From contig NZ_GL883837.1 in the NCBI RefSeq assembly GCF_000205165.1, forward strand, positions 1-64,000: DNA of 64,000 bases. The letters run 5' to 3'. Under the pieces are notes generated by a model. That model ran no database searches. It worked only from the letters and a program-made list of their open reading frames with translations, and was not told where the DNA came from. The DNA comes from Paraprevotella xylaniphila YIT 11841 (GTDB taxonomy: Bacteria > Bacteroidota > Bacteroidia > Bacteroidales > Bacteroidaceae). Made by a program: the position numbers and the translations under genes. Shown here piece by piece: positions 17,401 to 37,452 of this stretch (position 1 is its first letter; each line of letters begins with the position of its first letter).

Positions 17401-20187
17401 GACGAATACGGCCATTATTCCCATGACAGACTGGTGCTGTTCATCAACCAAGGCGGCTTCAAGTTCCAAAGGATAGATACCGACATCATCGACGATGACC
17501 ATTGGCAATGGAGCTATCCGGCGTTTGCCGACTTGAACAACGATGGCATCAAAGACATCATCATAGAAGAGGAAGCCAATGTCGAAAACCGCATCTATCA
17601 TATTTACCTCAGCCGAGGCGGACAAATTAACTATGACTCTCCCATAAAAGTGGAAGGTCCCGTGGGAACAACCCAAGACCTCATCTTCTACGACCTGGAC
17701 AACAACGGATACCTTGATTTGGTCGGTACGCATTTGAACAGTTGGCTGTACAATTACGGAGGAGGAAAGTTTGAGTTGCAAACCACCGATGACGACAACG
17801 GTTCCTATATGCTATTTGGAAAAGATGCCAACGGAAAGCCCTTGTTCCTGAACAACGCCGGAGACGACATGAACACGGCCAACAGCCGCATTTCCAATAC
17901 GCCACCGCACACTCCGCAAGGCTTGCGCGCCACGCAAGACGAAGACGGGTATCTCACCATATCATGGAACGCTGCCGAAGATGCCGAAACCCCGGCCTGC
18001 CAGATGCGTTATAACCTGAGCGTGAAAAAACAAGGGGCTTCCGGAGAAGGGGCATTCATCATCTCCCCGTTGAACGGGCTAAGCAATGAGGCCGCCCCTC
18101 TGCCCTCCCCATTGCAAGAACTGACGGGGACACAGATACGCATACCTGTATCTGCACTGCCGGTAGGCAAATATGAGATTCAGATGCAAAGCATAGACAG
18201 ATGGTTCGCCACTTCGGATTTCACCACCCCCTTGGCGGTGGAAATCCTCCCTAAACCGTTATTGTCCTTGCCGCCACGCATCTGTCGTGACAAATCGGCC
18301 ACCATACGGTATGTCGGCACAGGAGGAAAGAACATAAAGGTGGATTTCGGAGCCGATGCCACCGTATTGGACAGTAGCGACGGCCACACGTACGAAGTGG
18401 TGTGGAGCACAGCCGGACAAAAGACCCTTACCGTAACCGTGGACGGCATCAGCAGCAAAGTGTCCACCTATGTCAATCCCCCGTTGGACGCCACATTCAC
18501 CCTGCCCGGAATCACGTTGGCCCACACGAAAACCAACTTTGAAATATCGGACGACATCTTCATGGCCAACCGGAGCGTAAGTTTCACCGTCAAGTCACAA
18601 GACGACAATGACTTTTATACTCCCGAGCACTATGGTATCAGTTTTGAACGGAAAGAAAACACGAAAGAGGTACGGGCCACATTCACGCATACCGGACATT
18701 ATACCGTGCGCATGAACGTGGAAGACGATGGCTGCGGAAACATCTACCAAGAACGCGACATCGACGTGCTCGAAGGTATGGAAGCCCCGCAGATCGCCTT
18801 GGTCACGGTAGACCCCACGACCGGGAAAAACCGGATTAACTGGAAATTCAAAAACCTTCCGGATTACATTTCCACGGTCTGCATCTACAAAGAGGGCAGC
18901 CACTACAACCAATTCGACCTGATTGGCGAAGCACAACCGTCAGACGAGGGGTTCACCGACATGGCCTCCAACCCGGCCGTCACCACTTCACGCTACCGTA
19001 TCTGCCTGAACACCAGTTTCGGTATACCGACGGAAAGCGGTACGCCCCACCAAAGCGTCCACCTGACCATCAACAAAGGCATGAACGGCAGTTGGAACCT
19101 GATGTGGAATGCTTACTCCGGACGCGACATAGACCATTACCGCATCCTGAGAGGCACCTCGCCTGAAACCTTAACCGAAATAGCTACCGTTCCGGGCAGC
19201 ACCCAGTCATACACCGACCTCACAGCTCCCGAAGGCGTGGTTTATTATGCCATAGCTTATAGTGCTTATTACGAAGATGAATGGCAACCGATGAAGCGCA
19301 ATCTCGCCATGGCTTCTGCCCAATCGAACACAGCCAGTGCAGCGCAAGCCCAAAACTTGCGGTTGGCCGAAGAACTGGCCGTCACGCATTTGGAGAAAGA
19401 GGCCGTATTGAACGAGCAACAAGCCAGCCTGCACCTGTATGCCCACATCTATCCTGCGAACGCCTCGTGCAAGAATGTGAACTGGACGATTATACAGGGG
19501 GAAGAACTGGCCTATGTCACCCCACAAGGACTATTGGTCGCCCATGGAACTCAGGCCGGGCAGATTATCGTACGCGCCACGACCATCGACGGCTCACAAC
19601 TGCATCAGGACTTGACGGTAGAAAAAGCATCCTTCCCCGTCCCGGTAGAAAGCATCCGCATCTACCCCGAAGAGGAACTCTATATCGACAATAGCACCGG
19701 AGTGCAACGCATAGAACTGGCAGCACAGGTTTACCCGGAAGAAGCCACGAACCCGCAAGTCGCCTGGAACATTATCGAAGGCAGTGAATTCGCTTATATC
19801 GAAGAGGATGCTTCCGGACACACGTACCTCCATGCCACCCAAAACGGCAAGGGCACGATTGAGGTAAAATCACTGGCCTATCCCGAGATACGGGATACCC
19901 GTGCATTCCACGCCGTGGGATTCCCCGGAAGCGACATCCGCTCTTCCCGCGAAAACACCATCCACGTCTATCCGACCATCGTGACCGAAAACCTTCATGT
20001 CTGCCACATGCCGGACAACAGTGAAAAACAGATTCACGTCATCGGATTGGACGGACGGTGCAAGCATACGGAACAAACATGGGAAACGGACATCCGCATC
20101 CCATGCCACAGTTATCCTCCTGGCATTTACCTGTTAAAGGTAATCACCAACGGACAAACCGTAACGCGCAAGTTCATTAAGAAATGA
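14428..20187 (+). CDS. Giant secreted multidomain protein with VCBS/FG-GAP repeats and T9SS sorting domain
   Basis: A 1919-residue protein with a signal peptide (hydrophobic about residues 20-42, cleaved near AAQAQDD). In order: FG-GAP/VCBS-like repeats rich in D-x-N-x-D-G calcium loops (about 165-570), a fibronectin III-like domain (about 590-690), a PKD-like domain (about 725-790), a second VCBS block (about 810-1125), fibronectin III-like (about 1160-1275), two Ig/PKD-like domains (to about 1450), two more fibronectin III-like domains (to about 1630), and two bacterial Ig-like (Big_2) domains (about 1650-1830). The last 75 residues (YPTIVTENLHV ... GIYLLKV ... RKFIKK) form a type A T9SS sorting domain. 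Probably a surface adhesin or scaffold; no enzyme domain is visible. Confidence 0.85.
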   Translation: MEKHYHDAFSGAPPLTSNGTLLLLSRALFLVLCSLWGAMAAQAQDDSYRWTEQNGVYTLTGTAQKGEIATIKVGSFYASDDHADATVYFHASGIDSQKDNISLFYPIKQDGTGSDTQHRELIQEGWNDVYLTAQHVEGTTANVQISHIVLPTNTTHPVEAMSNIYDINGDGKMEFLGTDFRFHSYQYPGLMPMEQYSIPEKGEHARLCNLNNDAFPDIRYLEGGTIALSGQDASWQIPENVSEAPYPCDYNNDGRIDLMHDNRKIYRQAADGSFNSIEIIPISSEEDTLVYNRWESQPSSSGIGLGNLGGDVGVAIGGSPSAHVATFSSNREFYSMDFNKDGHADLIDESTGTLLLNRGNNRFLVAPQSGRLYPRDLNGDFIMDYICYDEETQTVESMVFQKDGSIKRQTLMSNLAMDKRIYFCDFNADGYVDVLLPFSHSSATGEYCYLVMAINDGKGNFAINEDNTFHRQLFFIGCADVDNDGCYDILALEKNADRKVWNGWECDLYWLKGSKDMLFKEMPDALIPTQIVQYESSGGLEGDAEAYVGDFDNDGFCDILVHSMYFERLSDKLPTASNSFLYSFKQEATAANQAPEKPDMPTLVSDAASGMLQINWQPGKDDLTPTTDLTYALRIGTAPGKGDILYACADEQGHRLNLMPGNMEYNLDKTLNVSGWRKGDYYIAVQTIDAMGKGSAWSDAAIYRHEVAHAPFYIADKDITTADTAIIGYDGPADPSLSYDWDLDGGTIISSEASGSILKVVFDQPGQKHITLSVIDAEGNTSTPRTDDLHVSAVRFDKRTLGNPIYSIQQIADIDIDGQPELLASDGVYQTTEGQDFEKAPGIYNTNLNVSLNFAWDYNRDGLMDFIGGMNAENGTFKDNLMLNQGNRRFTVTNAIGDAFVPKIGISDFWEYPIYDFNNDGLPDYHWRNSSGYSGQNDTIYENTGDWRTFVAHPIDCIAYSGTSNEFQYDFVYADINGDNLMDMAGWGKQWDEYGHYSHDRLVLFINQGGFKFQRIDTDIIDDDHWQWSYPAFADLNNDGIKDIIIEEEANVENRIYHIYLSRGGQINYDSPIKVEGPVGTTQDLIFYDLDNNGYLDLVGTHLNSWLYNYGGGKFELQTTDDDNGSYMLFGKDANGKPLFLNNAGDDMNTANSRISNTPPHTPQGLRATQDEDGYLTISWNAAEDAETPACQMRYNLSVKKQGASGEGAFIISPLNGLSNEAAPLPSPLQELTGTQIRIPVSALPVGKYEIQMQSIDRWFATSDFTTPLAVEILPKPLLSLPPRICRDKSATIRYVGTGGKNIKVDFGADATVLDSSDGHTYEVVWSTAGQKTLTVTVDGISSKVSTYVNPPLDATFTLPGITLAHTKTNFEISDDIFMANRSVSFTVKSQDDNDFYTPEHYGISFERKENTKEVRATFTHTGHYTVRMNVEDDGCGNIYQERDIDVLEGMEAPQIALVTVDPTTGKNRINWKFKNLPDYISTVCIYKEGSHYNQFDLIGEAQPSDEGFTDMASNPAVTTSRYRICLNTSFGIPTESGTPHQSVHLTINKGMNGSWNLMWNAYSGRDIDHYRILRGTSPETLTEIATVPGSTQSYTDLTAPEGVVYYAIAYSAYYEDEWQPMKRNLAMASAQSNTASAAQAQNLRLAEELAVTHLEKEAVLNEQQASLHLYAHIYPANASCKNVNWTIIQGEELAYVTPQGLLVAHGTQAGQIIVRATTIDGSQLHQDLTVEKASFPVPVESIRIYPEEELYIDNSTGVQRIELAAQVYPEEATNPQVAWNIIEGSEFAYIEEDASGHTYLHATQNGKGTIEVKSLAYPEIRDTRAFHAVGFPGSDIRSSRENTIHVYPTIVTENLHVCHMPDNSEKQIHVIGLDGRCKHTEQTWETDIRIPCHSYPPGIYLLKVITNGQTVTRKFIKK

Positions 20188-23245: not shown

Positions 23246-23290
23246 AAAAAACTCCGTTTCTTTGATATGAAAAGAATACGGAGTTTTTTT
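23246..23290 (+). terminator. Terminator-like hairpin after argH, overlapping the next start codon
   Basis: AAAAAACTCCGT (23246-23257) pairs with ACGGAGTTTTTT (23278-23289); the U-rich side continues to 23290. The ATG of the next gene (23267-23269) lies in the 20-base loop. Confidence 0.75.
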
Positions 23291-23818
23291 ATCTTCACGG
23301 CATTGCTATGCCTCACGGCCTGCAAGGAGGACGTACAAAACACCTACTCCAACTATCCGGCCTATTTCGTGTACAAAAACGTCAACACCGTACCGCAGCT
23401 CAACGCGGCCCTGAACAGCTTAGGGGTCTATACGACCATCTGCCGCGACCGCGACCGTTTCCTGTTCACGGACGAAAGCGGACACACCACCCCGGTCAAT
23501 GCCACGGCCATTGCCGGTAACTCTTCCATTCAAATGGGTATCGCCGGTTTTATTGCCGGCCTGCCCAACATCCCGGAATTGGGCAACACGGTTTCTTTGC
23601 CCGTCTGCTACGATTTGGCCTGCCCCAACTGTTATTCCGCTTACAACATATCCCGTGCCCTGCAACTGAAAGAAGGCGGTTATGCCGCATGCGTATCCTG
23701 TGGCCGGACGTACAACCTGAACAATCAGGGACAAATCAGTATCGGTGAGGAAGGGGTAAGCCTGTTCCGTTACCGTATCACGTATTCCGGCAACACGATG
23801 GTCATCAACAACCGGTAA
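23267..23818 (+). CDS. Small uncharacterised lipoprotein
   Basis: A 183-residue protein with signal peptide and lipobox (LLCLTAC, Cys18), so it is membrane anchored. The mature part includes paired Cys in CYDLACPNC and CVSCGR, suggesting a rubredoxin-like or zinc-binding knuckle. I do not recognise the family. Its start codon lies in the loop of the hairpin that terminates argH, so it is read either by run-through or from a promoter inside the hairpin (a weak TTTCTTTG at 23257-23264). Confidence 0.75.
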   Translation: MKRIRSFFIFTALLCLTACKEDVQNTYSNYPAYFVYKNVNTVPQLNAALNSLGVYTTICRDRDRFLFTDESGHTTPVNATAIAGNSSIQMGIAGFIAGLPNIPELGNTVSLPVCYDLACPNCYSAYNISRALQLKEGGYAACVSCGRTYNLNNQGQISIGEEGVSLFRYRITYSGNTMVINNR

Positions 23819-25224: not shown

Positions 25225-25272
25225 TCCGAACAATACACCCGATACACAACAAAATATACCGATATTTAAGTA

Positions 25273-25303
25273 TTGACGAACATTCTCGAATGGGATAATT
25301 TTG
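25273..25303 (+). promoter_or_regulatory. Promoter of the TonB-receptor/peptidase operon with embedded palindrome
   Basis: TTG at 25273-25275 and TAATTTTG at 25296-25303 fit the -33/-7 pattern with 20 bases between. A perfect CATTC-TC-GAATG inverted repeat (25281-25292) lies in the spacer, where a repressor could block the promoter. The start codon follows 21 bases later. Confidence 0.65.
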
Positions 25304-25324: not shown

Positions 25325-28156
25325 ATGTTACAAGGAAAAAATCCCATTCTCGGCATCATCCTACTCTTTTTCTTCTCTCTCCCGTCTTTTGCTCAAAATG
25401 CTTCAAATATATTGGAAGGAACCGTGCGCGACATAAAGGGAAAACCTATAGAGTTAGCTACGGTAAGCCTGAACAACGTCATAGGTTCCCATACCGACAG
25501 GAACGGACACTATAAGCTGACCCGGCTGAAAGAAGGTACCTACCAGTACCGTGTTTCTTTTGTAGGTTATGAAACGGTGACGGGCACGGTGCATATCCAA
25601 TCCTCAAAAACAAGACTGGATGTCACACTCAAAGAGCTGAGCCTCAACCTTAAGAATGTAACAGTGACAGCACGGCAAGAACAAATGGGCTCTAAATCGC
25701 TTATCGGAGAGGATGCCATACGCCACGTACAACCCAAAAGCCTGAACGATTTGTTGCAGCTCGTACCGGGCAACCTGATTGAAAATCCGAACTTGAACAA
25801 CTTAGGGCAGGCACACATACGCGAAATAGAAGATGACGACAACAATGCCTTAGGCACCTTGGTGGTAGTAGACGGCACCCCTTTAAGCAACGAATCGAAC
25901 CTGCAAGTGGTATCGCCCAGCAAATTCGGTGCCAATTCCGGCATGCAAAGCGACGGGATGAGCGAACAGACCACAGCCGGAAGAGGCGTGGACCTACGCA
26001 CCGTCAGTGCCGGAAATATAGAATCGATGGAGGTGATACGCGGTATCCCCTCCGTGGAATACGGTAATCTGACGTCGGGCGTAGTGGTGGTCAAGACCAA
26101 GGCGGGACACACGCCTTGGGAAGCCAAGTTCCAAACGGACCCAAACTCCAAACAAGTCTTCGCCGGCAAGGGATTCAACCTCAAAAGGGGCGGAGCTGCA
26201 AACTTCAGCGTAGACTGGTCGCAGTCGTGGGCCGATACGCGCAAGCACTACATGGGATACGACCGCATCACGGCCTCGGCCGGATACTCCGCCCAATTCG
26301 GGCCGCTTTCCCTTAACGTGAAAGGAGCCTTTTACTCTAACGTGAACAACCGTAAGGACGATCCCCAGTTCGAGGAACAACAAATACATTACAAAAACAC
26401 CAACGTGGGCGGACGGCTTTCCGTAAGCGGACGTTACAAGCCTGCCGGAGGCTTTCTCTCTTCGTTGGACTATAATCTCTCAGCTCAAATGTCACGCACG
26501 GTAGACAGCCACGACAATTGGGTGAACAATCCCGACGGACTGGTCACGACAGCCCGCGAACCGGGTGTACACGTAGCTCAGATACGTAATGTGGGCTACA
26601 CATCGGCTTACCGCATTGAGGGCATCCCCGTCAACCTGTATGCCCAGGCTGTGGCAAACAAATACTTGCAAATCTCGGAAAACGACTATGCCAACCTGAA
26701 ACTCGGCGCAGAATACACTTACGATGCCAACCGGGGTGAAGGATTCACTTACGACGAAAATAACCCGCCGCAAGCTCAAGGGGCACAGACTCTCCGTCCA
26801 CGGAGCTACAAGGACATACCTGCCCAAAGCACCTTGTCGGGTTTTGCCAGCAGCCGTCTGCGTAAGGGGTTGGGCTCCATGGGGCTTATGCTGGAAGCCG
26901 GAGTACGCGTCAGCAACATGTTTGTAGACCGGAAACAAAGCGGAGGTATCAGCCACTTCCTCGTAGCCGAGCCTCGTGTCAACGCCACGCTAAACCTGTT
27001 GGACAGCCGGAACAATCCTGTCTTCGACCTGCTAGCCCTGACCGGAGGTTTCGGCATCTCCAACAAGATGCCCACACTGATGTACCTCTATCCCGACTAT
27101 GCCTATTTCGACAATGCCAGCCTGTCTAAATACGGGACGGAAACAAAGGACCGTTTGGGATTGATCACGACGGACGTAGTAAAGAATACGGCTAATCCCG
27201 ACCTGCGTCCGGCACGCTCCACGAAATGGGAAGCGGGCCTGTCTTTCCGCATCAACAGGATAAAGGGTTTTGCCACTTTTTTCCATGAATCCCACCGGCA
27301 CGAACTGGGCTTTACGTCGCAACTCATCTGGCAAAACTATGACAAGTACACCGTGCCGGCCACGGCTACCGACCCCGTATTCGATGCCGCAAGCGGCGAC
27401 GTGACCTACCGCACGGACGGGACGGAGCATACAGCCCTGCGGACGAAGACCACCGAGATGTATACCTGGAGCCGGGCAGCCAACGGTACGACCACGCACA
27501 AGCATGGCATCGAGTACGGGTTGGACTTCGGTGAAATCAAGCCCTTGCACACCTCGCTGAACATCAGCGGGGCATGGTTCCATATCAAGCGCAAAAATGA
27601 GAACATGCCCCTGAACTATATCAATTCTTCGTTCGACTACGTAGGCGTGCTCCCTTCGGGCGGAGGGAACCTGCGAGACCGGTTCAATTCCACGTTCCGG
27701 CTCATCACCCACATCCCGGCCATCAAAATGGTATTCACCACATCGGTACAGGTCGTATGGTACGAAAGCACCCAAACCATCTACGAAGACGAGAACGGAA
27801 ACAGCCGCTACTATCTCAAGTCTTACGAAGACAAGGATTACCTGGTAGTCGACCCTGTGGGATACTACGACAAGCAGGGCCGTTACACGGCATGGAGCCC
27901 GGCCGATGCCGACGACGCGGACAAGTCGCGCATCATGTACCGCACACAACCTTACTTGTACGAAAAGGATGTCATCAAGCCATGGGCATTGCTGAGCTTC
28001 CGTTTTACCAAAGAAATAGGCCGTGTAGCCGAACTGTCCGTCATCGCCAACAACTTCACCAATACCAAGAAGTGGCACACCAACCCGCACAGCCTGGCCA
28101 AAACGCAACTATACCCGGACATGTACTTCGGAGCGGAACTGAAGCTGAAACTTTGA
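25325..28156 (+). CDS. TonB-dependent outer membrane receptor
   Basis: A 943-residue protein with signal peptide (cleaved near SLPSFAQ), a CarboxypepD_reg-like domain (about 28-113) that begins ILEGTVRDIKGKPIELATVS, a plug domain (about 120-255), then a 22-strand barrel to the C-terminal ELKLKL. There is no SusD partner. The barrel has an NPDL motif (NPDLRPARS, near residue 625), which occurs in heme receptors such as HmuR but also in other TonB receptors. It leads a seven-gene run with extracytoplasmic peptidases and a HmuY-like gene, so heme, metal or peptide uptake is the best guess. Confidence 0.88.
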   Translation: MLQGKNPILGIILLFFFSLPSFAQNASNILEGTVRDIKGKPIELATVSLNNVIGSHTDRNGHYKLTRLKEGTYQYRVSFVGYETVTGTVHIQSSKTRLDVTLKELSLNLKNVTVTARQEQMGSKSLIGEDAIRHVQPKSLNDLLQLVPGNLIENPNLNNLGQAHIREIEDDDNNALGTLVVVDGTPLSNESNLQVVSPSKFGANSGMQSDGMSEQTTAGRGVDLRTVSAGNIESMEVIRGIPSVEYGNLTSGVVVVKTKAGHTPWEAKFQTDPNSKQVFAGKGFNLKRGGAANFSVDWSQSWADTRKHYMGYDRITASAGYSAQFGPLSLNVKGAFYSNVNNRKDDPQFEEQQIHYKNTNVGGRLSVSGRYKPAGGFLSSLDYNLSAQMSRTVDSHDNWVNNPDGLVTTAREPGVHVAQIRNVGYTSAYRIEGIPVNLYAQAVANKYLQISENDYANLKLGAEYTYDANRGEGFTYDENNPPQAQGAQTLRPRSYKDIPAQSTLSGFASSRLRKGLGSMGLMLEAGVRVSNMFVDRKQSGGISHFLVAEPRVNATLNLLDSRNNPVFDLLALTGGFGISNKMPTLMYLYPDYAYFDNASLSKYGTETKDRLGLITTDVVKNTANPDLRPARSTKWEAGLSFRINRIKGFATFFHESHRHELGFTSQLIWQNYDKYTVPATATDPVFDAASGDVTYRTDGTEHTALRTKTTEMYTWSRAANGTTTHKHGIEYGLDFGEIKPLHTSLNISGAWFHIKRKNENMPLNYINSSFDYVGVLPSGGGNLRDRFNSTFRLITHIPAIKMVFTTSVQVVWYESTQTIYEDENGNSRYYLKSYEDKDYLVVDPVGYYDKQGRYTAWSPADADDADKSRIMYRTQPYLYEKDVIKPWALLSFRFTKEIGRVAELSVIANNFTNTKKWHTNPHSLAKTQLYPDMYFGAELKLKL

Positions 28157-28194
28157 GAGCACACCTATATATAAACATTTAACAAACAGAAAAC

Positions 28195-29412
28195 ATGAGA
28201 AAGAAGTTTCTTAAAAGTGGTGTCATAGCCATGATGGCCGTATGCGGCCTCTCCTTCGTGTCTTGTAGCGAAGATAACGACGAGGGTATGAAGAGTTACA
28301 AACTGACGGTCAGCTATTCCCTTCCATCGGACGTGGAAGCGTCTAACGTGGAAGAGCTTAAGCTCATTTTGGGTTCGACTACTAAAAACGACACGTTGTC
28401 CTTGGACGCTAACCCGAAAGAGATAGAACTTCCGCAGGGACAGTACAAAGTGACGGTCACCGGCAAGGTGGCCGATGAAGCCAAGGCTTCCCTCAGCGGC
28501 AGCACGTCAGTGGACCTTTATGCCCATACTCCGGTTACGGTCAACCTACAAAAAATCATGCAATCGACCCTGATATTCAAAACCATCCACAACGCAGGAA
28601 GCAAACAGTATTACATGCACGAGAGCTATTTTGAGATTGTCAACAACTCGGACGAAGTGCAATACTTGGACAACCTGATTCTGACTGCTCCTGCCGGGAA
28701 CCAACAAACGGCAAATGCATGGCAGGCCAATGGCTACGAAGACCTTTACGCCTGCGGACAGGGTTCCGTGGTGGCATTCCCCGGAAACGGGCACGACTAT
28801 CCCCTCCAACCGGGTGAGAGTGTCCTGATTGCCAACGATGCCACAAACCACAAACTGGCATACGGCGAAGATGCGTCGCAAGCGGCAGACTACGCCAACT
28901 GCCCGGACCTGAGCAACGCCGATTGGGAAATCTATTTGGACTACAACGCCAACGATGTGGACTATGCAGCTCCCAACTTGAAAACCATCTTCTACAACAA
29001 CAAATACATGTTTGCTTTCGGACTGGGAACCTCAGGACGTTCCTATGTGTTGGCAAAATTGCCGGAAGGCATGACACCGGAGGCTTACGCGGCTTTGGAG
29101 TCGAGCGTGATGTACGAACCGGGAACCTCATCCACTACTATGACCTATCTGGTCATCCCTAGCAAATATGTGCTTGACGCAGTAGACATCTACGATGCGG
29201 ACAGCGAAACCCATTACCCCACCTTCTTGCCGCAAGATGATGCTACCGGCGTGAAAGGCAACCCTATGTATTCGGCCAAATGTATCCGCCGCAAGGTCGT
29301 CGAAATGAAGAACGGGCGACCCGTCTACAAAGATACCAACGATTCTGCCGCCGATTTCTTGCGCGACCAACCGTTGACCCCGGGAGAAACTCCTACAAGT
29401 GTTGATGAATAA
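28195..29412 (+). CDS. DUF4876-type lipoprotein
   Basis: A 405-residue lipoprotein with signal peptide and lipobox (LSFVSC). Residues 33-120 form a carboxypeptidase-regulatory or Ig-like fold (YKLTVSYSLPSD...). The central part has IHNAGSKQYYMHESYFEIVNN, which matches the start of the DUF4876 region as I know it; assignment is by memory of the family. Probably outer-membrane anchored, working with the TonB receptor 38 bases upstream, as a substrate-binding partner might. Its ligand is unknown. Confidence 0.75.
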   Translation: MRKKFLKSGVIAMMAVCGLSFVSCSEDNDEGMKSYKLTVSYSLPSDVEASNVEELKLILGSTTKNDTLSLDANPKEIELPQGQYKVTVTGKVADEAKASLSGSTSVDLYAHTPVTVNLQKIMQSTLIFKTIHNAGSKQYYMHESYFEIVNNSDEVQYLDNLILTAPAGNQQTANAWQANGYEDLYACGQGSVVAFPGNGHDYPLQPGESVLIANDATNHKLAYGEDASQAADYANCPDLSNADWEIYLDYNANDVDYAAPNLKTIFYNNKYMFAFGLGTSGRSYVLAKLPEGMTPEAYAALESSVMYEPGTSSTTMTYLVIPSKYVLDAVDIYDADSETHYPTFLPQDDATGVKGNPMYSAKCIRRKVVEMKNGRPVYKDTNDSAADFLRDQPLTPGETPTSVDE

Positions 29413-29424
29413 TTATGAGAACTG

Positions 29425-29456
29425 ACAGGGACGGGATCAAATCCCATCCCTGTTTT
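29425..29456 (+). terminator. Internal terminator or attenuator hairpin
   Basis: 13-base arms (29425-29437 and 29441-29453, one mismatch) with a 3-base loop, followed by TTTT. It lies between the DUF4876 and DUF6850 genes, so it probably lowers transcription of the peptidase genes relative to the receptor genes. Confidence 0.65.
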
Positions 29457-29470
29457 AATCCGAAAAGAAA

Positions 29471-31066
29471 ATGAAACGTTACTTCCTGTTACTGTCGTTG
29501 AGTTTGGGTCCACTCGTCCCAATGCACGCGCAATCTTTAGAAGAGTACCGAAGCGAATGGAATGAAAGTTCGGCTAATGTGTCGGACAATATCCGGTATA
29601 CTAGCCTGAACCCCTCGCGCATCTCTTCTAATTCCTACAAAAACAAGGGTGTGGCCAAACTGGACTATACGATTGGACGTGGAAGTTACCGGGCGGTGGA
29701 TGAAGGTAGACAGTCGGATAATCTCAAGTTTTATATGGGTGGAATTAAAAACCTGGGCAAGGTAGACGTGTCGGGCTTCATCAGTTACCGTAATTTACAA
29801 GAGAAAGACAAGAAGTGGAACTCCACCCTTTTCCTCAACCCCGATAACCCATTTGTGCTTTGCGATTCAGTGGCAAGCGACGCTACCACGGAATCTTTTG
29901 AAATGGGCATGACGGCCTCTTATGCATGGAATGAATCCTGGAAAGGGGGAATCTCTATCGGATTGACATTAGGAAGCCTGTCCGACCAGACAGACCCTCG
30001 CCCCAAAACCAATACCACCGTCCTGCCTATTTACGTAGGAGCGGAACACCGGTTGAACTCCCAATGGGCACTAGGTGCTACGGCCGGCATTTCCTTTTAT
30101 AATTCGGACATCGCCTATACGTTGGTCAACACACTCAACAGCCACCGTTATTTCCTGATGAAAGGTATGGGGGACTATTACCGTATCTCGTCGGGTGACG
30201 TATCAGGCTACCAACGTGCCTATAAGGGACTGAATTATACCGGTGCCTTGCAACTTGTATGGGAACCGGAACACAAAAAATACGGGAATTTCACGGAAGT
30301 CCGTTATACGCATGTTTCGGAAGAAGCTACAGACGGAGGTTCTTCCTATAAATTTTACGGAGGAGACTACACTTCGGATGAATGGATGCTACAGAACCGT
30401 TTCCTCCTCTCCCCTCACCGTCTGACACGTCACCATCTGGTATTGACGGCTTCCTACCATTCCGGAAAAGGTATATGGCGGGACCAGAAAATGATGACAG
30501 ACACCGAACACGGGAACCTGGTATATTACGAGACGCTCAGCAAATATAAAATTCAGGATGACCAGCGAATGACCGCCGGACTGGAATATCGCTTCGAACG
30601 ATTGAAAGACGACAAGCAGGATTTCTTCGTAGACGCTTTGGCCGCATTCACGTCATCTGCCTATAATCACCAGTTGTCCACCGGAAAAGCCAAACAAACA
30701 TCCACCTTACTAACCACACAACTTTCTGCAGGCAAGTTCCTGAAAATCAAATCTGCAGGTTTGGACTTGTCTGTCCATGGCGGTTACCGTATACCGTTGA
30801 ACCGCACTTACGGAAATGGAAACACCAGAACGGCCGATGAAGACATTTCTGCCGTATACACCCGTCCACAATTCGAGTATGCCACTTCCGGACACGCCTT
30901 GATAGGGGCTTTGGCACAAGTAGCAATCCCCCTTCCTAAGAAAATAACTTTAGGCATTTATATATCCACGGATTTCAAGTTCTATAGGGACAAGAACGAA
31001 TATGATGATACTTTCGACGGTACGAACCGTTCGCTTTCTACCGCAGGAGTATATTTGCAATTTTAA
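29471..31066 (+). CDS. DUF6850-type outer membrane beta-barrel protein
   Basis: A 531-residue protein with a signal peptide (MKRYFLLLSLSLGPLVPMHAQ), then many short amphipathic strands with a C-terminal STAGVYLQF, ending in Phe as barrels do. The N-terminal mature part (YRSEWNESSANVSDNIRYTS) and the overall pattern match the Bacteroidales DUF6850 family found with TonB receptors and DUF4876 proteins. It starts 58 bases after DUF4876, beyond an internal hairpin. Role unknown; perhaps a second channel or surface component of the uptake system. Confidence 0.75.
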   Translation: MKRYFLLLSLSLGPLVPMHAQSLEEYRSEWNESSANVSDNIRYTSLNPSRISSNSYKNKGVAKLDYTIGRGSYRAVDEGRQSDNLKFYMGGIKNLGKVDVSGFISYRNLQEKDKKWNSTLFLNPDNPFVLCDSVASDATTESFEMGMTASYAWNESWKGGISIGLTLGSLSDQTDPRPKTNTTVLPIYVGAEHRLNSQWALGATAGISFYNSDIAYTLVNTLNSHRYFLMKGMGDYYRISSGDVSGYQRAYKGLNYTGALQLVWEPEHKKYGNFTEVRYTHVSEEATDGGSSYKFYGGDYTSDEWMLQNRFLLSPHRLTRHHLVLTASYHSGKGIWRDQKMMTDTEHGNLVYYETLSKYKIQDDQRMTAGLEYRFERLKDDKQDFFVDALAAFTSSAYNHQLSTGKAKQTSTLLTTQLSAGKFLKIKSAGLDLSVHGGYRIPLNRTYGNGNTRTADEDISAVYTRPQFEYATSGHALIGALAQVAIPLPKKITLGIYISTDFKFYRDKNEYDDTFDGTNRSLSTAGVYLQF

Positions 31067-31077
31067 GGATTAGTTTT

Positions 31078-33261
31078 ATGAGAAAAAGAAACATCTACTC
31101 TATTATCAGCCTGTGGTGCGTGCTATTCTTTTGCCCTACACTGCACGCCGAACGAAAAGGCTTTGCCGTCGTCATCGACTCCATCAGCTACCAACAGGCT
31201 CAACACGAACTGGCTGAATACATCCAGGCATTGGAATCCAAACAACATTTCAAAGTCTATACCGTAATCGACCGGTGGGGAATACCGGATTCTATCCGTG
31301 CTACTCTCAAAGGTCTGCACGCCCGGCCTCACGAAGCCATCATAGGCACCGTTTTTATCGGTGACATCCCCATTCCTATGATTCGCGACGCACAGCATCT
31401 TTGCAGTGCGTTCAAGATGAGCCAGAAAATGCCTTGGCAAGAATCCTCTGTCCCGTCAGACCGTTATTATGACGACTTCTCGTTGCAATTCGACTTTCTG
31501 AAACGCGACAGTATAGCCCCATATTATTACTATTCATTATCGGCACGGGGAAGTCAGCAAGTACACCCCGATTTGTTTTCCGGACGCATCCGTCCCACCG
31601 ACGGCGATATACCCGGTTCACGTTACACCAAGCTCAAAGCTTACTTGCAGAAAGCAACGGAAGCAAAATTGCATCCCGAACGTATGATGTCCGTCTTTGT
31701 CTATACAGGCAGCGGCAGCCTGTCAGAATCCAAAACGGCCCATATCGACGAAATGGCTTCCATGCATGCCCACTTCCCTTCGCTCGCACACCGTCCCAAT
31801 GCCTACCGCTACATGGACTATTCCGACGAGAAACTCATCAAACAAAAATTGATGAACGCGCTCATGTCGCCGGACCTGAGCGTGGCTTTCATGCACCATC
31901 ATGGCGATTACGACACACAGTACCTCAGTGCTTGGCCCCAACCCTCAACTGCGGAAGAAGCACGCGAGTACTTGCTGCATTGTTACCGCGCCTCCCTGAG
32001 CCGTGCCCGGCATTTCGGATATGATACGGACAGTATCAGACGAAACTTACAAAGCCGGGACCAGTTACCCGACGCTTGGATGGCAGAGTTGGATGACAGC
32101 ACTTTGGCAAAGGACGACTCTTTGGAAAGCGCCATGACCCACATTGTGTTGTCTGATTTCGCCCGCTACGCTTTCCGGCCGAATTGCAGAGTAGCCTTCT
32201 GGGACGCCTGTTACAACGGTTCCTGGCATCGTGAGAGCTGCATTGCCAACGAATACATATTCCAACCGGGAAAGACAATCTGCGGACTGGGAGGCTCTGT
32301 CAACGTACTTCAGGACAAGTGGCCGGACCGCTTTGCCGGCCTGTTGGAACAGGGTGTTATGATCGGATTCCTGAACCAACTCAATCCCGATTTGGAAATG
32401 CACGTGGTAGGCGACCCCACTTTTGCATTCCTTCCGGAACAAGATCACTCTCTTAATGACCTCATCAGTTCCGGCAAGCCGAAAGATTGGAAAAGGTTGC
32501 TCCGCCACAGTCTCCATCCGGATATACAGGCATTGGCCTTGCACCAATTGCAAGAAAGCAAGGAAGTTTCCGACCCACACCTGTTGGAATATCTGAAAAC
32601 GTCACCCTACGGAAGTGTCCGCCTGGAAGCGTTCTTGCTCCTCCAACAACAGCATTCCGACGACTTTGTCTCTGCCATTGAAAACGCGGCATACGACAAT
32701 TTCGAATTGCTGCAGCGTTTTGCAGTCAATGCGCTTATCAAAAACGGTGACCCTCGTCTGGCAAATACGCTGGCCGGGAAACTCTGCGACGTAAATACAT
32801 CGGCGCGAGTGGCATTCAATGCCCTGCAAGGCGCACAGTTCTTTTCCCGACAGGACCTGCTCCCCGCCGTAGAAGACAAGCTCCGGCAAATGGCTCCCTA
32901 CGTGGTCCACCCCGGAACTTATGCCGAAAAAGTATTGAAAAACGCCGGAAACTATGCCGGAAGATGGGACGAAGAGATTGAAAAGCTGTGTAAAGGGGAA
33001 ATGTCCCGCAAACGTGCTTTGGCACAAATCAACTTCATGCGAATCTATTGCCCGCCTTACCTCTTGCCCCAAGTTGCCGATTATGCCGCCACGCTAAAAG
33101 ACGACGAACTGCTGTTACCGTTACTCGAGGCTTTGGGATGGCACCGCCAGGCCTATACTTCGGCACAGGTACTCCCCGTAGTGGAAAAACTCATGAAAGA
33201 CCCTTCCCACTCGGAACAAGTGCGCCAAGAAGCTCTGAAAACCTACAAACGATTAAAATAA
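31078..33261 (+). CDS. Caspase-fold (gingipain/C25-like) peptidase with HEAT-like repeats, copy A
   Basis: A 727-residue protein with a signal peptide (to about residue 24, ALHA-type site) and no lipobox. Residues 25-450 form the peptidase-like part: GTVFIGDIPIPMIRD, SGRIRP, a histidine cluster FMHHHGD (H273-H275) and DACYNGSWH with Cys378, then HVVGDPTF. His-Gly and Cys-x-x-Gly motifs in this order fit clan CD/C25 peptidases. Residues about 460-727 are repeated helix pairs like HEAT repeats (HQLQESKEVSDPHLLEYL, ...RQEALKTYKRLK). No T9SS sorting domain is seen. It starts 11 bases after DUF6850. Activity and cut site are inferred from motifs only. Confidence 0.72.
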   Translation: MRKRNIYSIISLWCVLFFCPTLHAERKGFAVVIDSISYQQAQHELAEYIQALESKQHFKVYTVIDRWGIPDSIRATLKGLHARPHEAIIGTVFIGDIPIPMIRDAQHLCSAFKMSQKMPWQESSVPSDRYYDDFSLQFDFLKRDSIAPYYYYSLSARGSQQVHPDLFSGRIRPTDGDIPGSRYTKLKAYLQKATEAKLHPERMMSVFVYTGSGSLSESKTAHIDEMASMHAHFPSLAHRPNAYRYMDYSDEKLIKQKLMNALMSPDLSVAFMHHHGDYDTQYLSAWPQPSTAEEAREYLLHCYRASLSRARHFGYDTDSIRRNLQSRDQLPDAWMAELDDSTLAKDDSLESAMTHIVLSDFARYAFRPNCRVAFWDACYNGSWHRESCIANEYIFQPGKTICGLGGSVNVLQDKWPDRFAGLLEQGVMIGFLNQLNPDLEMHVVGDPTFAFLPEQDHSLNDLISSGKPKDWKRLLRHSLHPDIQALALHQLQESKEVSDPHLLEYLKTSPYGSVRLEAFLLLQQQHSDDFVSAIENAAYDNFELLQRFAVNALIKNGDPRLANTLAGKLCDVNTSARVAFNALQGAQFFSRQDLLPAVEDKLRQMAPYVVHPGTYAEKVLKNAGNYAGRWDEEIEKLCKGEMSRKRALAQINFMRIYCPPYLLPQVADYAATLKDDELLLPLLEALGWHRQAYTSAQVLPVVEKLMKDPSHSEQVRQEALKTYKRLK

Positions 33262-33283
33262 CCCTCATAGAACAAGGAACATC

Positions 33284-35458
33284 ATGAAAAAATTATTATT
33301 ATCCGTCCTTACTTGCCTGGCTTTTACGGCTCAAACTGCGGCACGTAACGGATTTGCCATCGTCATAGACTCGGTAAGTTATCAGGAAGCACGGCCTGAA
33401 GTGGACGCTTATGCCCGCGCCATAGAACGCCTACATGGCCTTAAAGTGTACACGGTCATCGACCGGTGGCAGATGCCCGACTCCATCCGTGCCACCCTGA
33501 AACATTTGCACGAACAGAAATCCGATCCTATCGTAGGGACTGTTTTCGTGGGAGACATCCCCATCGTCATGGTTCGCGACGCACAGCACCTGACCAGTGC
33601 CTTCAAGATGAACCAAAAGAATGACCGCCGCGAATCGTCTGTCCCTTCAGACCGGTTCTACGACGACTTCGGCCTGCAATTCGAGTTTCAGGGGAAGGAT
33701 GAGGAGAAACCTTATTTTTATTATTCCCTCACCCCCCAAAGCAGCCAGAAAGTCTATCCGGACTTGTACAGCGGACGTATCCGGCCTACCGACACGCCCG
33801 AAAGCTCCCGCTACCAGAAGCTCAGGGAATATCTGACCAAGGCTGTAAGGGAGAAAGAAAGACAACGGACGCTCGGACAACTGTTTTTCTTCGGCGGCCA
33901 CGGGTATATCTCCGAATCCAAAACCGCCCGCATGGACGAGAAAGCGGCTTATTTCGAACATTTTCCCTCATTGGCCGGACGCACCAACCGCATTAGCTAT
34001 ATGGACCACACCGACCACAATCCGGTAAAAGAACATCTGATGAACGAAATGATGCGTACCGACCTGGATCTGGCCATCTTGCACCACCACGGCTATTTCG
34101 ATACGGAATACCTGAACGGTACGGCTCCCATCCGCACGGTGCGCGAGGCTAAGGAGTTTATCATCCGCAACGTGAGGATGCACGTGGAGGAAGCCCGCGA
34201 AAGAGGACGTAATTACGACTCCCTGCGCGTGGTACTGGAGAAACGTTTCGACCTGCCGTCCACCTGGCTCGGCGACAACCCTCTAGCCGACAGCCTGCGC
34301 ATCGCCGACTCTACCCTCGTAGCTAACGAAGACCTGCATCTGGAGGATTTCAAGATATTCGGCTACCGCCCCAATGTACCCGTCGTAGTGATTGATGCCT
34401 GTTTCTGCGGCTCCTTCCACCAGGATGACTGCATAGCGAACGAATACATCTTCCAGCCGGGCTCTACGGTGGCTGTCATAGCCAATACGGTCAATGCCTT
34501 GCAAGACAAATGGTACGACCGTTTCATCGGACTGACAGCCCAAGGCGGTTGCGTAGGAGACGTTGTACGCTTTTCCAATCTCCTGGAGTCCCATGTCATC
34601 GGTGATCCCACGTTCCGCTTTGCCCCCGTGCCCGGAAGTGTGGATGTGGACGGCCTGCTGTTGCGAAATAAGGTCTCTTCTTGGAAAAGGCTGTTGAAAA
34701 GCCCTTTGCCGGACGTGCAGTCATTGGCCATCGAACAGTTGAGAAGAGCCGGTGCGCTCTCGTCAGCCGACCTGCTCCGCATCTATCGTGAATCCCCTTA
34801 CGGCGTAGTCCGCTTAGAAGCGCTGATGGCCCTCTCTGCCACCCCCGACGACCATTTCATCACAGCCGTGACGGAAGCCTCGCAGGATGCCTACGAACTG
34901 GTACAGCGCCAAGCGATACGCTTCATCGCCAAAAACGGCGACCGACGCCTTATTCCGGCCCTCATCCGGCTGTCTATCGCCAATAACACCAGCGACCGTT
35001 GCAACTTTAATGTCATGACGGCTCTCGCCTGCTTCCCCAAAGAAGACCTACTCGCCGAATTCGACCGGCAGTTCGATGCGCCATCCGTACAATACCTCGA
35101 CAAGAACAACCTCCGCGGTAAAATCAGAAATACCATAGCCCACAGTGCCGACCGTCTGACCACCGACATCGACAAGGTGGTGAAGGGCGAAGCCTCAGAA
35201 AAAGACCGGACCTTCACCATCCGTGCCCTACGCAACACCTTGCCGCACCACAAAGTTCCGGAGTTGTTGGTTTATCTGCAGGACTGCGGAGACGGGAACA
35301 CTCAAATCTTGCTGCTCGAAGCCTTAGGATGGCACACCGTTTCCTGCCATGCCGCCGACATCGCGGCGACAGCCTTGAAAATGAGCGAAGACGCATCGCT
35401 CCCCGATGCCGTCCGACAGGAAGCCCTGAAAACCTACCGCCGCATCCATGAAAAGTAA
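33284..35458 (+). CDS. Caspase-fold (gingipain/C25-like) peptidase with HEAT-like repeats, copy B
   Basis: A 724-residue tandem paralogue of the gene before it, with the same order: signal peptide (MKKLLLSVLTCLAFTAQTAA), GTVFVGDIPIVMVRD, LYSGRIRPTD, LHHHG (H267-H269), DACFCGSFH with Cys373, SHVIGDPTF, then HEAT-like helices ending RQEALKTYRRI. The likely catalytic His and Cys are kept in both copies. The paralogues differ most in the repeat half, which could set different protein partners. It begins 22 bases after copy A, and its last codons overlap the next gene by 11 bases. Confidence 0.72.
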   Translation: MKKLLLSVLTCLAFTAQTAARNGFAIVIDSVSYQEARPEVDAYARAIERLHGLKVYTVIDRWQMPDSIRATLKHLHEQKSDPIVGTVFVGDIPIVMVRDAQHLTSAFKMNQKNDRRESSVPSDRFYDDFGLQFEFQGKDEEKPYFYYSLTPQSSQKVYPDLYSGRIRPTDTPESSRYQKLREYLTKAVREKERQRTLGQLFFFGGHGYISESKTARMDEKAAYFEHFPSLAGRTNRISYMDHTDHNPVKEHLMNEMMRTDLDLAILHHHGYFDTEYLNGTAPIRTVREAKEFIIRNVRMHVEEARERGRNYDSLRVVLEKRFDLPSTWLGDNPLADSLRIADSTLVANEDLHLEDFKIFGYRPNVPVVVIDACFCGSFHQDDCIANEYIFQPGSTVAVIANTVNALQDKWYDRFIGLTAQGGCVGDVVRFSNLLESHVIGDPTFRFAPVPGSVDVDGLLLRNKVSSWKRLLKSPLPDVQSLAIEQLRRAGALSSADLLRIYRESPYGVVRLEALMALSATPDDHFITAVTEASQDAYELVQRQAIRFIAKNGDRRLIPALIRLSIANNTSDRCNFNVMTALACFPKEDLLAEFDRQFDAPSVQYLDKNNLRGKIRNTIAHSADRLTTDIDKVVKGEASEKDRTFTIRALRNTLPHHKVPELLVYLQDCGDGNTQILLLEALGWHTVSCHAADIAATALKMSEDASLPDAVRQEALKTYRRIHEK

Positions 35459-36920
35459 ACTCATACCTCTTTTATACATAACCTTGCACCTATGCGCCCA
35501 AGGCGCATGGGCGCAAGTCCCCGACGGAAGCGACATGCACCTGCCGCGCACACCTTTCCGCCTGCAAAGCCGGGCAGAGGTACAGTTACCGCCTGCGGTG
35601 GACAATTCCACACGGAAATTCTTTCCACCCATATTGGACCAGATGGGCGGTTCCTGCGCCCAGGCTTCCGGCATCGGTTACATGTTCACTTACGAAATCA
35701 ACCGCCTGCTCGACCGCGACGCACATGCTTCTGCCGACCATCGCTTCAGCTATCAGTTTTCGTGGAACCTGCTCAATGACGGACAGGACCAGGGCGACTT
35801 TGTAGACCAGGGCCTCTACCTGTCTGAGCGTTACGGCATCATGACCGAACAGGACTACGGCATCTCCGGCACCTACCAATTCAAATGGGCCACGGGATAT
35901 GACAAATACTACAAGGCCCTGCAATACCGCACGCAGGAGGTGCTGACGTTTGCCGACAGCATCCCCCTGATGAAACGCTGGCTCTACGATGCCGGCGACG
36001 GCAGCGCGGTGGGCGGTGTGCTCACCTTCTCGGCCATGAGCCGCAGATGGGATATCGACGACGACTACCAGGGTCCCTCGCTCACCGGCTACCGCTCCTT
36101 GCTCAAAAGCCTTGCCACAGACGGGGCACACGCTCTCACCATAGCCGGATACGACGACACGGTCGTCTACACCGACGCGCAGGGGACACCGCACACGGGA
36201 GCCTTCATCGTGGTCAACTCCTGGGGCACCCATAGCCACGACCGCGGACGCTTCTATCTCCCCTACGACTTTTTCCGTGATGCCCGCGTGCCCGAACAGC
36301 AACTGGGCAGCACGGTGGAAGCCATCCGCGTGCGCATCCACCGCCCCCTCGTAGTCTTCCGCCTCGCGCTCGACTTCTCTTCACGCAACGACCTCTCTTT
36401 CGGTCTGGCCACGGAAAGCGACGTAGACGAACGGGGCATCATCGGCTACCACACCTGCCGGGCTTTCTACAACCAAGGGGGAGACTACCCCATGCAGGGA
36501 CAATACATGCCCGGAAATATCGAAATAGCCCTGGACCTGACCGAATACATGACGGAAGAAGGGCGCGGCGGCGAAACATTCTACCTCAATATCCTGCGTG
36601 GTTTCAGGGGCAAGGTGAAGGGCACGGGGCGCGTCACGGCCCTCTCCATCGTGGACTACCGTGGGACGCAGCCCGTGGAATACCCCTACCGTGGCACCCT
36701 ACCAGTGGAGCTGCGCGACGGCAGCAATCCTTTCAGCATCCGGGCCGCAGAAGACGCTCCCGTCTCTGCCTCGGCCTTCCGTTACACCGACGAGGCAGGC
36801 AACGTGACCGACCGTACCTTCCTCCTGCGCACAGCCGAAGGCCGGCAGGCCAAGATACGCTTCGCCAACCCCGACACCGGCAGCCAGACCATCACCCTGC
36901 GCTACCGGACGACGGAATAA
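35448..36920 (+). CDS. Papain-like (C1 family) cysteine peptidase, secreted
   Basis: A 490-residue protein with signal peptide (MKSKLIPLLYITLHLCAQGA, cut near AWAQ). The C1 catalytic set is visible: Gln65 and Cys70 in DQMGGSCAQA, His228 in GAHALTI, Asn257 in VVNSWG. The Trp usually after the catalytic Cys (SCW) is replaced by Ala-Gln. The peptidase domain spans about 50-290; the remaining 200 residues look like beta-sandwich material and end without a clear sorting domain. It overlaps copy B of the C25-like peptidases by 11 bases, so translation is coupled. Probably the third peptidase of a degradative uptake system. Confidence 0.85.
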   Translation: MKSKLIPLLYITLHLCAQGAWAQVPDGSDMHLPRTPFRLQSRAEVQLPPAVDNSTRKFFPPILDQMGGSCAQASGIGYMFTYEINRLLDRDAHASADHRFSYQFSWNLLNDGQDQGDFVDQGLYLSERYGIMTEQDYGISGTYQFKWATGYDKYYKALQYRTQEVLTFADSIPLMKRWLYDAGDGSAVGGVLTFSAMSRRWDIDDDYQGPSLTGYRSLLKSLATDGAHALTIAGYDDTVVYTDAQGTPHTGAFIVVNSWGTHSHDRGRFYLPYDFFRDARVPEQQLGSTVEAIRVRIHRPLVVFRLALDFSSRNDLSFGLATESDVDERGIIGYHTCRAFYNQGGDYPMQGQYMPGNIEIALDLTEYMTEEGRGGETFYLNILRGFRGKVKGTGRVTALSIVDYRGTQPVEYPYRGTLPVELRDGSNPFSIRAAEDAPVSASAFRYTDEAGNVTDRTFLLRTAEGRQAKIRFANPDTGSQTITLRYRTTE

Positions 36921-36947
36921 CCGGAATAACTTAAAAAGACAGAACGA

Positions 36948-37411
36948 ATGAAAAAACAACTCGCACGATTGATATTCTTCTCCTTTCTCGCAGCAGCCTG
37001 CTCCGCCGAGCAACCTCTTACCACCGGCGGAAGTACGGCAGACCACACGGCCGTCATCCCCAATGCCAAGGGACAATGGACTTACTTCTCGCTCAAGACG
37101 CATACCGTGGTAGGCACTTGTGCCATGACCGACACCCTCGCCCAACAGGCCTACGCAGCCCGCACAGACTGGGACATCGCCATTGCCGACGGGCGTATAC
37201 GCACCAACAGCGGCACATCGGGAATCGGAGACGGAGGCATAGCCCTCTCGCCCTACGGCTATGAACAGACTGACCCGGACATGACTGTCAAAATTCAAAC
37301 CGATTCCATACGGTAGAGGAATGGCGGAAAGAATGGCGCTCTAAACCACTTGAAACCAACATGTTGAGAATGGATAAAATTTGTGCGCCAAACGAAAAAT
37401 CATTCGGCTGA
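36948..37411 (+). pseudogene. HmuY-like heme-binding lipoprotein gene, frameshifted and truncated
   Basis: The first frame (36948-37316) gives 122 residues: signal peptide with lipobox (FLAAACS, Cys18), WTYFSLKTHTVVG, then WDIAIADGRIRTNSGTSG, a segment typical of HmuY-family hemophores, which are normally about 200 residues. It stops at TAG 37314-37316. Coding-like sequence continues one base over (from 37313: VEEWRKEWRSKPLETNMLRM) until a TGA at 37409-37411 inside a dispersed repeat that begins at 37384. So one small indel plus the repeat have removed the last third. Assignment to HmuY is by motif. Last gene of the peptidase/TonB operon, 27 bases after the C1 peptidase. Confidence 0.6.
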
Positions 37412-37452
37412 GAATGAAAAATCAATCTCAGGAGAATGATTTTTCGTTGGCA
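37384..37452. repeat. Dispersed palindromic repeat, copy 2
   Basis: Bases 37384-37417 match the reverse complement of 20294-20327 at 33 of 34 positions. The right arm (GAATGATTTTTCGTTGGCA, 37434-37452) pairs with the left arm 37384-37405 apart from a short deletion. It overlaps the end of the broken HmuY-like gene. The remaining gap to 37587 has no gene I can support. Confidence 0.75.

Follow-up and report, generated by a model that had tools for sequence, protein, structure and literature searches.

In Paraprevotella xylaniphila YIT 11841, a seven-gene operon on the plus strand (25325-37316) of the 64,000-nucleotide window analysed here (positions 1 to 64,000 of contig NZ_GL883837.1, part of a 3.79-Mb genome in 87 contigs) encodes, in this order, a TonB-dependent receptor, a DUF4876 lipoprotein, a DUF6850 outer-membrane barrel, two peptidases with a gingipain-type catalytic domain and HEAT repeats (C25-HEAT), a papain-like peptidase and a short HmuY-like lipoprotein (mini-HmuY). 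The main finding is that the HmuY domain appears to be divided between the last two genes. The comparisons tip slightly towards a reading in which strands beta1-beta6 of the lipoprotein and beta13-beta15 of the peptidase tail form one HmuY-type beta-sandwich from two proteins, with thumb and fingers deleted, serving as a non-covalent anchor that takes the place of the type IX sorting tail; the whole would belong to a Fus-type import system of Bacteroidota that uses cysteine proteases.

The mini-HmuY gene (36948-37316, plus strand) matched positions 3-49 of the Pfam HmuY model with 38.9 bits against a cut-off of 27, and its product is a lipoprotein of 112-158 amino acids in all 35 homologues. 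A truncated or frameshifted hmuY was rejected, the short form being conserved in 35 loci. A mini-HmuY profile aligned with the N-terminal part only of HmuY structures (8b61, 9-119, E 6.5e-19; 8b6a, 12-128; 3h8t, 7-94). When genomes were searched with the HmuY model, unexpected C-terminal matches were obtained inside the adjoining papain-like gene (35448-36920, plus strand). The tail of that peptidase lies at 36804-36917 (plus strand). When a profile of such peptidase tails was run against the whole PDB, the top four matches were HmuY-type chains, each matched in its C-terminal part (8b6a, 166-205, E 5.7e-6; 3h8t, 149-188, E 2.4e-5). Against a reference alignment of 14 full-length HmuY relatives (214 columns), the mini-HmuY profile covered columns 2-125 (probability 99.9, E 2e-31) and the tail profile covered columns 164-212 (probability 98.3, E 2e-14). 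The N-terminal part of the domain thus lies in 36948-37316 and the C-terminal part in the peptidase tail, and not on one chain. The possibility that the two are repeated homologous domains was rejected (probability 1.8).

The two parts also occur together. Mini-HmuY was found directly downstream of all 50 complete operon-type papain-like genes; its apparent loss in 12 of the loci with the papain-like gene was rejected, as it had been missed by open reading frame calling and was recovered in all 50. Where enough downstream sequence was available, the papain-like gene and mini-HmuY were both present in 40 loci and both absent in 31. In a survey of 295 genomes of the same order, the short HmuY form accompanied the tailed peptidase in two genomes, and almost all other HmuY matches were full-length HmuY-type frames, apart from one frame of 113 amino acids.

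In the palm of HmuY, sheet I is built of beta1, beta6 and beta13-15 and sheet II of beta2-5, and the heme ligands are His134 on thumb strand beta8 and His166 on finger strand beta11 (PMC2671838). The 191-residue chain of 3h8t lacks the first 25 residues of HmuY; with this offset, mini-HmuY corresponds to approximately residues 32-119 and the tail to approximately residues 174-213, so that both heme ligands fall in the stretch between, which is in neither. Methionines serve as heme ligands in the HmuY relatives Bvu, Tfo, PinO and PinA (PMC7956564), and no invariant His or Met was present among the 35 mini-HmuY homologues. The earlier note had called this gene product a HmuY-like hemophore: the N-terminal HmuY match was borne out, and the hemophore part was not, since only N-terminal palm strands are present and the heme-ligand segment is missing. 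As this segment is missing from both halves, heme as the cargo is unproven. The simplest reading of the alignments is that mini-HmuY and the tail together rebuild the palm and dock the peptidase on the lipoprotein, and we infer a two-gene docking module that would anchor the peptidase, and not a heme carrier. If true, the split HmuY would be a new way of tethering an enzyme to the envelope, and would caution against taking every short HmuY match for a heme carrier.

HmuY/HmuR of Porphyromonas gingivalis (PMC2671838, PMC3040768) is similar in that HmuY-type strands occur near a TonB receptor and gingipain-fold proteases. It differs from the present operon, in which the domain lies on two genes in reversed order and the thumb/finger segment with the heme ligands is absent. 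No CobN-type chelatase (CobN/HmuS) and no other HmuY domain were found in the P. xylaniphila genome, which therefore lacks a canonical hmu operon.

The papain-like peptidase scored below the cut-off of Pfam Peptidase_C1 (12.8 bits against 20.7), and its profile searched against the PDB matched Lpg2622 (E 4.5e-10) and the cysteine protease 3ois (E 1.9e-5). Gln65, Cys70 (35655), His228 (36129) and Asn257 (36216) were invariant in 42 homologues. The assignment made in the earlier note was confirmed, because the catalytic residues are invariant and the profile matches C1-type structures. Homologues of the catalytic and middle regions were found in about one third of the genomes of the order, as larger proteins in which the HmuY-type tail is absent. 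Of nine relatives examined outside the operon, eight matched Por_Secre_tail with E of 1e-3 or lower, and in seven of these the match also passed the Pfam cut-off. As judged from the sequences, therefore, the HmuY-type tail replaces, in the operon, the type IX sorting tail of the papain-like relatives. These non-operon relatives are long, most of the complete ones carry type IX sorting tails, and some have laminin-G or immunoglobulin domains.

The C25-HEAT peptidases are encoded at 31078-33261 (copy 1) and 33284-35458 (copy 2), both on the plus strand. The Pfam C25 model barely exceeded its threshold for copy 2 (24.1 bits against 23) and was unreported for copy 1. An AlphaFold2 model of copy 2 (mean predicted local distance difference test score (pLDDT) 88) was compared by VIA-align, and residues 19-451 were superimposed on RgpB/Kgp with Z 28.1-28.5 and a root-mean-square deviation of 2.7-2.9 over 291-298 residues; the next rows, to unrelated proteins, had Z 12.8. 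In a Foldseek search with a peptidase model, HEAT-repeat proteins came first and gingipains were absent among the best 50 rows. His267, His269-Gly270 and Cys373 were invariant in 21 aligned homologues; the catalytic His and Cys codons are at 31900-31902 and 32209-32211 in copy 1, and those of His269 and Cys373 are at 34088-34090 and 34400-34402 in copy 2. The structural model of copy 2 and the invariant residues bore out the gingipain-like assignment of the pair in the earlier note: the predicted catalytic fold is that of gingipains, with the catalytic residues intact. The family C25 gingipains RgpB and Kgp share this fold and the His/Cys pair. The operon enzymes differ from them in being encoded with a receptor, in having HEAT repeats (beyond residue ~453 in copy 2) in place of the gingipain C-terminal domains that follow the catalytic domain, and in lacking a type IX secretion system (T9SS) sorting domain. 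The earlier note had also described the peptidases as carrying Sec signals but no visible sorting domain, which held: the N-termini of the C25-HEAT proteins, copy 1 included, resemble ordinary Sec signals by eye, and no sorting domain was found by Pfam in the peptidases of the operon, Por_Secre_tail giving no match even with E values as high as 1.

The DUF4876 gene (28195-29412, plus strand) matched PF16215 with E 5e-50 (170.7 bits against a cut-off of 27.9), and its product has an uncharacterised homologue of solved structure, 4q1z (E 6e-106). An acid-rich stretch after the lipid cysteine is linked to surface export in Bacteroidota. The sequence from the lipid cysteine of the DUF4876 protein starts with CSEDNDE, and an acid-rich lipobox was found in 56 of 77 homologues; the lipoprotein is thus probably surface-exposed. 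In contrast, a lipobox was found in 23 of 139 C25-HEAT proteins, and only one of these had an acid-rich stretch. This difference favours periplasmic C25-HEAT peptidases and a DUF4876 protein at the surface, a placement that we infer from the signal sequences.

These predicted locations bear on the reading given in the earlier note, a surface syntrophy as in P. gingivalis, in which surface peptidases would open hemoproteins and the receptor would take up the free heme. It is consistent with the gingipain fold, with the T9SS cargo nature of the C1 domain relatives, with acid-rich lipoboxes on DUF4876 proteins and on some mini-HmuYs, and with the fact that the DUF4876 gene of P. gingivalis is among its top hemin-responsive genes (PMC10470040). 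However, none of the operon peptidases has a sorting domain, the C25-HEAT lipoproteins are almost never acid-rich, and the heme-ligand part of HmuY is absent in both halves. We therefore consider surface syntrophy unlikely.

The receptor (25325-28156, plus strand) matched PF13715 (CarboxypepD_reg-like) and PF07715 (plug), and DUF6850 (29471-31066, plus strand) matched PF21012 (E 4e-93). These matches bore out the earlier description of a SusD-less TonB receptor accompanied by DUF4876 and DUF6850 proteins. The predicted structure of the DUF6850 protein is a large barrel without a plug (mean pLDDT 91.8, long strands within 58-530), and its best structural neighbours were porins and FhaC (Z 16-18, ~10% identity). 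Its assignment to a known barrel family was rejected, as the best matches were many unrelated porins, FhaC and TonB-dependent receptor barrels, and the model gives the fold class only. The seven co-directional genes are separated by gaps of 38, 58, 11, 22, -11 and 27 nucleotides in gene order, in agreement with the small gaps and overlap reported before. The start of the previously proposed extent, 25325-37411, stands; its end does not, because the last gene stops at 37316. A near-identical locus was found in Paraprevotella clara (98% for the second peptidase).

The conservation of this layout was examined with a C25-HEAT profile. It matched 549 coding relatives across the species collection, of which the best 80 gave 76 distinct loci; relatives from the same order brought the total to 89 loci with a C25-HEAT peptidase. 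Upstream gene order was counted only in the 67 loci with more than 6.5 kb of upstream sequence. Peptidase genes without the receptor-DUF4876-DUF6850 triad, which the earlier note had named as a point against its reading, were looked for and did not overturn it: the triad preceded the peptidase in 64 of the 67 loci, with a short insertion between them in two. The three exceptions were solitary C25-HEAT copies, all in operon-bearing genomes; two shared a contig with an operon copy, and the third was in isolate SIG122, whose operon sits on another contig. The general order, across Bacteroidales from gut and oral species, was receptor, DUF4876, DUF6850, one to four tandem C25-HEAT peptidases and, optionally, the papain-like peptidase with mini-HmuY. 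A co-occurrence survey, as the earlier note had suggested, showed that all 11 of the 295 genomes with C25-HEAT also had DUF4876, which was present in 48. That DUF4876 is always tied to the peptidases was rejected, since 37 of these 48 genomes had no C25-HEAT; the receptor/lipoprotein core thus reaches further, with the peptidases regularly added to it. Distant clusters of receptor, DUF6850 and DUF4876 genes that had no peptidases were also seen; some of these contained a second DUF4876 gene or one more small lipoprotein. At five loci, solitary extra C25-HEAT genes were located 5' of a recurring three-gene set (~480, 392 and 320-350 amino acids).

The 37 genomes with DUF4876 and no C25-HEAT are compatible with another explanation, that the peptidases protect the importer by destroying bacteriocin-like proteins, or process a ligand peptide of the receptor after entry. 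TonB receptors are common entry routes of bacteriocins, and the peptidases are the sole soluble enzymes encoded in the operon. On the other hand, the invariant layout, the presence of up to four copies and the apparently docked papain-like peptidase suggest dedicated digestion, and no such toxin is known for this receptor. This explanation is very unlikely in our view.

A link to iron is supported by the upstream region and by published transcriptomes of relatives. An operator-like palindrome, AATATACC-GATATTTA-AGTATTG (25253-25275, no strand assigned), is situated 50 nucleotides ahead of the start codon of the receptor. Its consensus, AAATACC-N8-GGTATTG, was found with two mismatches or fewer upstream of the receptor in 34 of 56 non-redundant loci, compared with approximately one expected from shuffled sequences and two from the upstream regions of other genes. 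In four relatives, the operator occurred directly ahead of the operon and also ahead of genes for other TonB receptors, TetR, PepSY_TM, hemerythrin, CbiK, an ATP-binding cassette transporter and an outer-membrane protein (OMP) barrel; it was also present, with at most two mismatches, ahead of three of seven flavodoxin genes and of one full-length hmuY. An OMP beta-barrel protein of ~250 amino acids with the same operator was noted in two genomes. Most of these operator-bearing gene kinds belong to the Bacteroidetes iron stimulon (PMC10434189). In the same study, BT1933-39 of Bacteroides thetaiotaomicron (HEAT-repeat protein, DUF4876, receptor) was up 3.5- to 7.4-fold in iron depletion and PG1019-22 of P. 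gingivalis 20.8- to 214.5-fold. Both loci resemble the present operon in having an iron-repressed TonB receptor and DUF4876, together with the HEAT-repeat protein in B. thetaiotaomicron; the peptidase nature, DUF6850 and the split HmuY were not described there and no function was assigned (PMC10434189). The transcriptomes of these relatives and the shared operator suggest that the operon is probably switched on by iron shortage.

The iron link also bears on the possibility of a nutrient system, which would import large peptides as an amino-acid source with only incidental iron control. Three peptidases, with one to four C25-HEAT copies per locus, would suit this role, and the phylum is known to import peptides by RagAB-like systems. 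Neither a SusD-type partner nor a peptide transporter was found in the operon by Pfam, however, and the iron-linked operator and the published iron response of relatives argue against it, and we regard it as quite unlikely.

The reading that we favour, and hold to be evenly poised between right and wrong, is a starvation-induced, protease-coupled outer-membrane import system that would capture an iron-bearing protein, bring it in and digest it. When iron is short, the DUF4876 lipoprotein at the surface would pass such a protein, or a large peptide, to the TonB receptor, of which the DUF6850 barrel may be a partner. Periplasmic C25-HEAT peptidases would digest the imported cargo, held by the HEAT solenoid, and set free the iron or its cofactor. 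The papain-like peptidase would join them in many species, held at the membrane as its HmuY-type C-terminal strands complete the mini-HmuY palm. The whole would work like Fus/PqqL import with unrelated cysteine peptidases. Of the interpretation in the earlier note, a protease-coupled uptake operon with an iron link is retained, and the HmuY-like hemophore is not. Several points weigh against the favoured reading. The import of an intact protein is an interpretation of ours, and the peptidases could act at the surface. The iron-response data come from relatives and not from P. xylaniphila; BT1933-39 is modestly induced, and in that study a transposase falls within one of the gene ranges (PMC10434189). 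In addition, the P. xylaniphila genome contained no further convincing operator site, the others being no better than the control.

Import of proteins for their iron, coupled to proteases of the M16 type, has been described in Proteobacteria (PMC6793856). Fus (FusA/FusC) and YddB/PqqL (PMC6793856, PMC6071955) likewise combine a TonB receptor with an operon-encoded, probably periplasmic protease; their expression is linked to iron, as that of the Paraprevotella operon may be, judging from its relatives and the shared operator. They differ in using M16 metallopeptidases, whereas gingipain-fold and papain-like cysteine peptidases are encoded here; the Paraprevotella operon adds a Bacteroidota lipoprotein and a second barrel, and the published Fus/PqqL survey covers Proteobacteria. 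No description of the gingipain-fold/HEAT enzymes, the strict operon or the split HmuY was found in open-access papers, subscription papers not being covered, and no open-access paper was found on DUF6850, 4Q1Z or HmuY combined with papain. If true, a widespread counterpart in Bacteroidales that uses gingipain-fold enzymes would provide a function for DUF4876, DUF6850 and the iron-regulated locus of B. thetaiotaomicron and P. gingivalis. It would also point to roles of gingipain-type catalytic domains outside the type IX pathway.

Past the last gene, a long imperfect hairpin (37396-37443, plus strand; predicted fold ~ -21 kcal/mol) is a candidate transcript end, and was not flagged by a terminator scan. 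Elsewhere in the window, 14428-20187 encodes a 1919-amino-acid FG-GAP/PKD/Big_2 protein that bears a type IX sorting tail, so the genome probably has a type IX system. Upstream of the operon, 23267-23818 encodes a lipoprotein of 183 amino acids that contains two pairs of the CxxC type (zinc-ribbon or Rieske-like).

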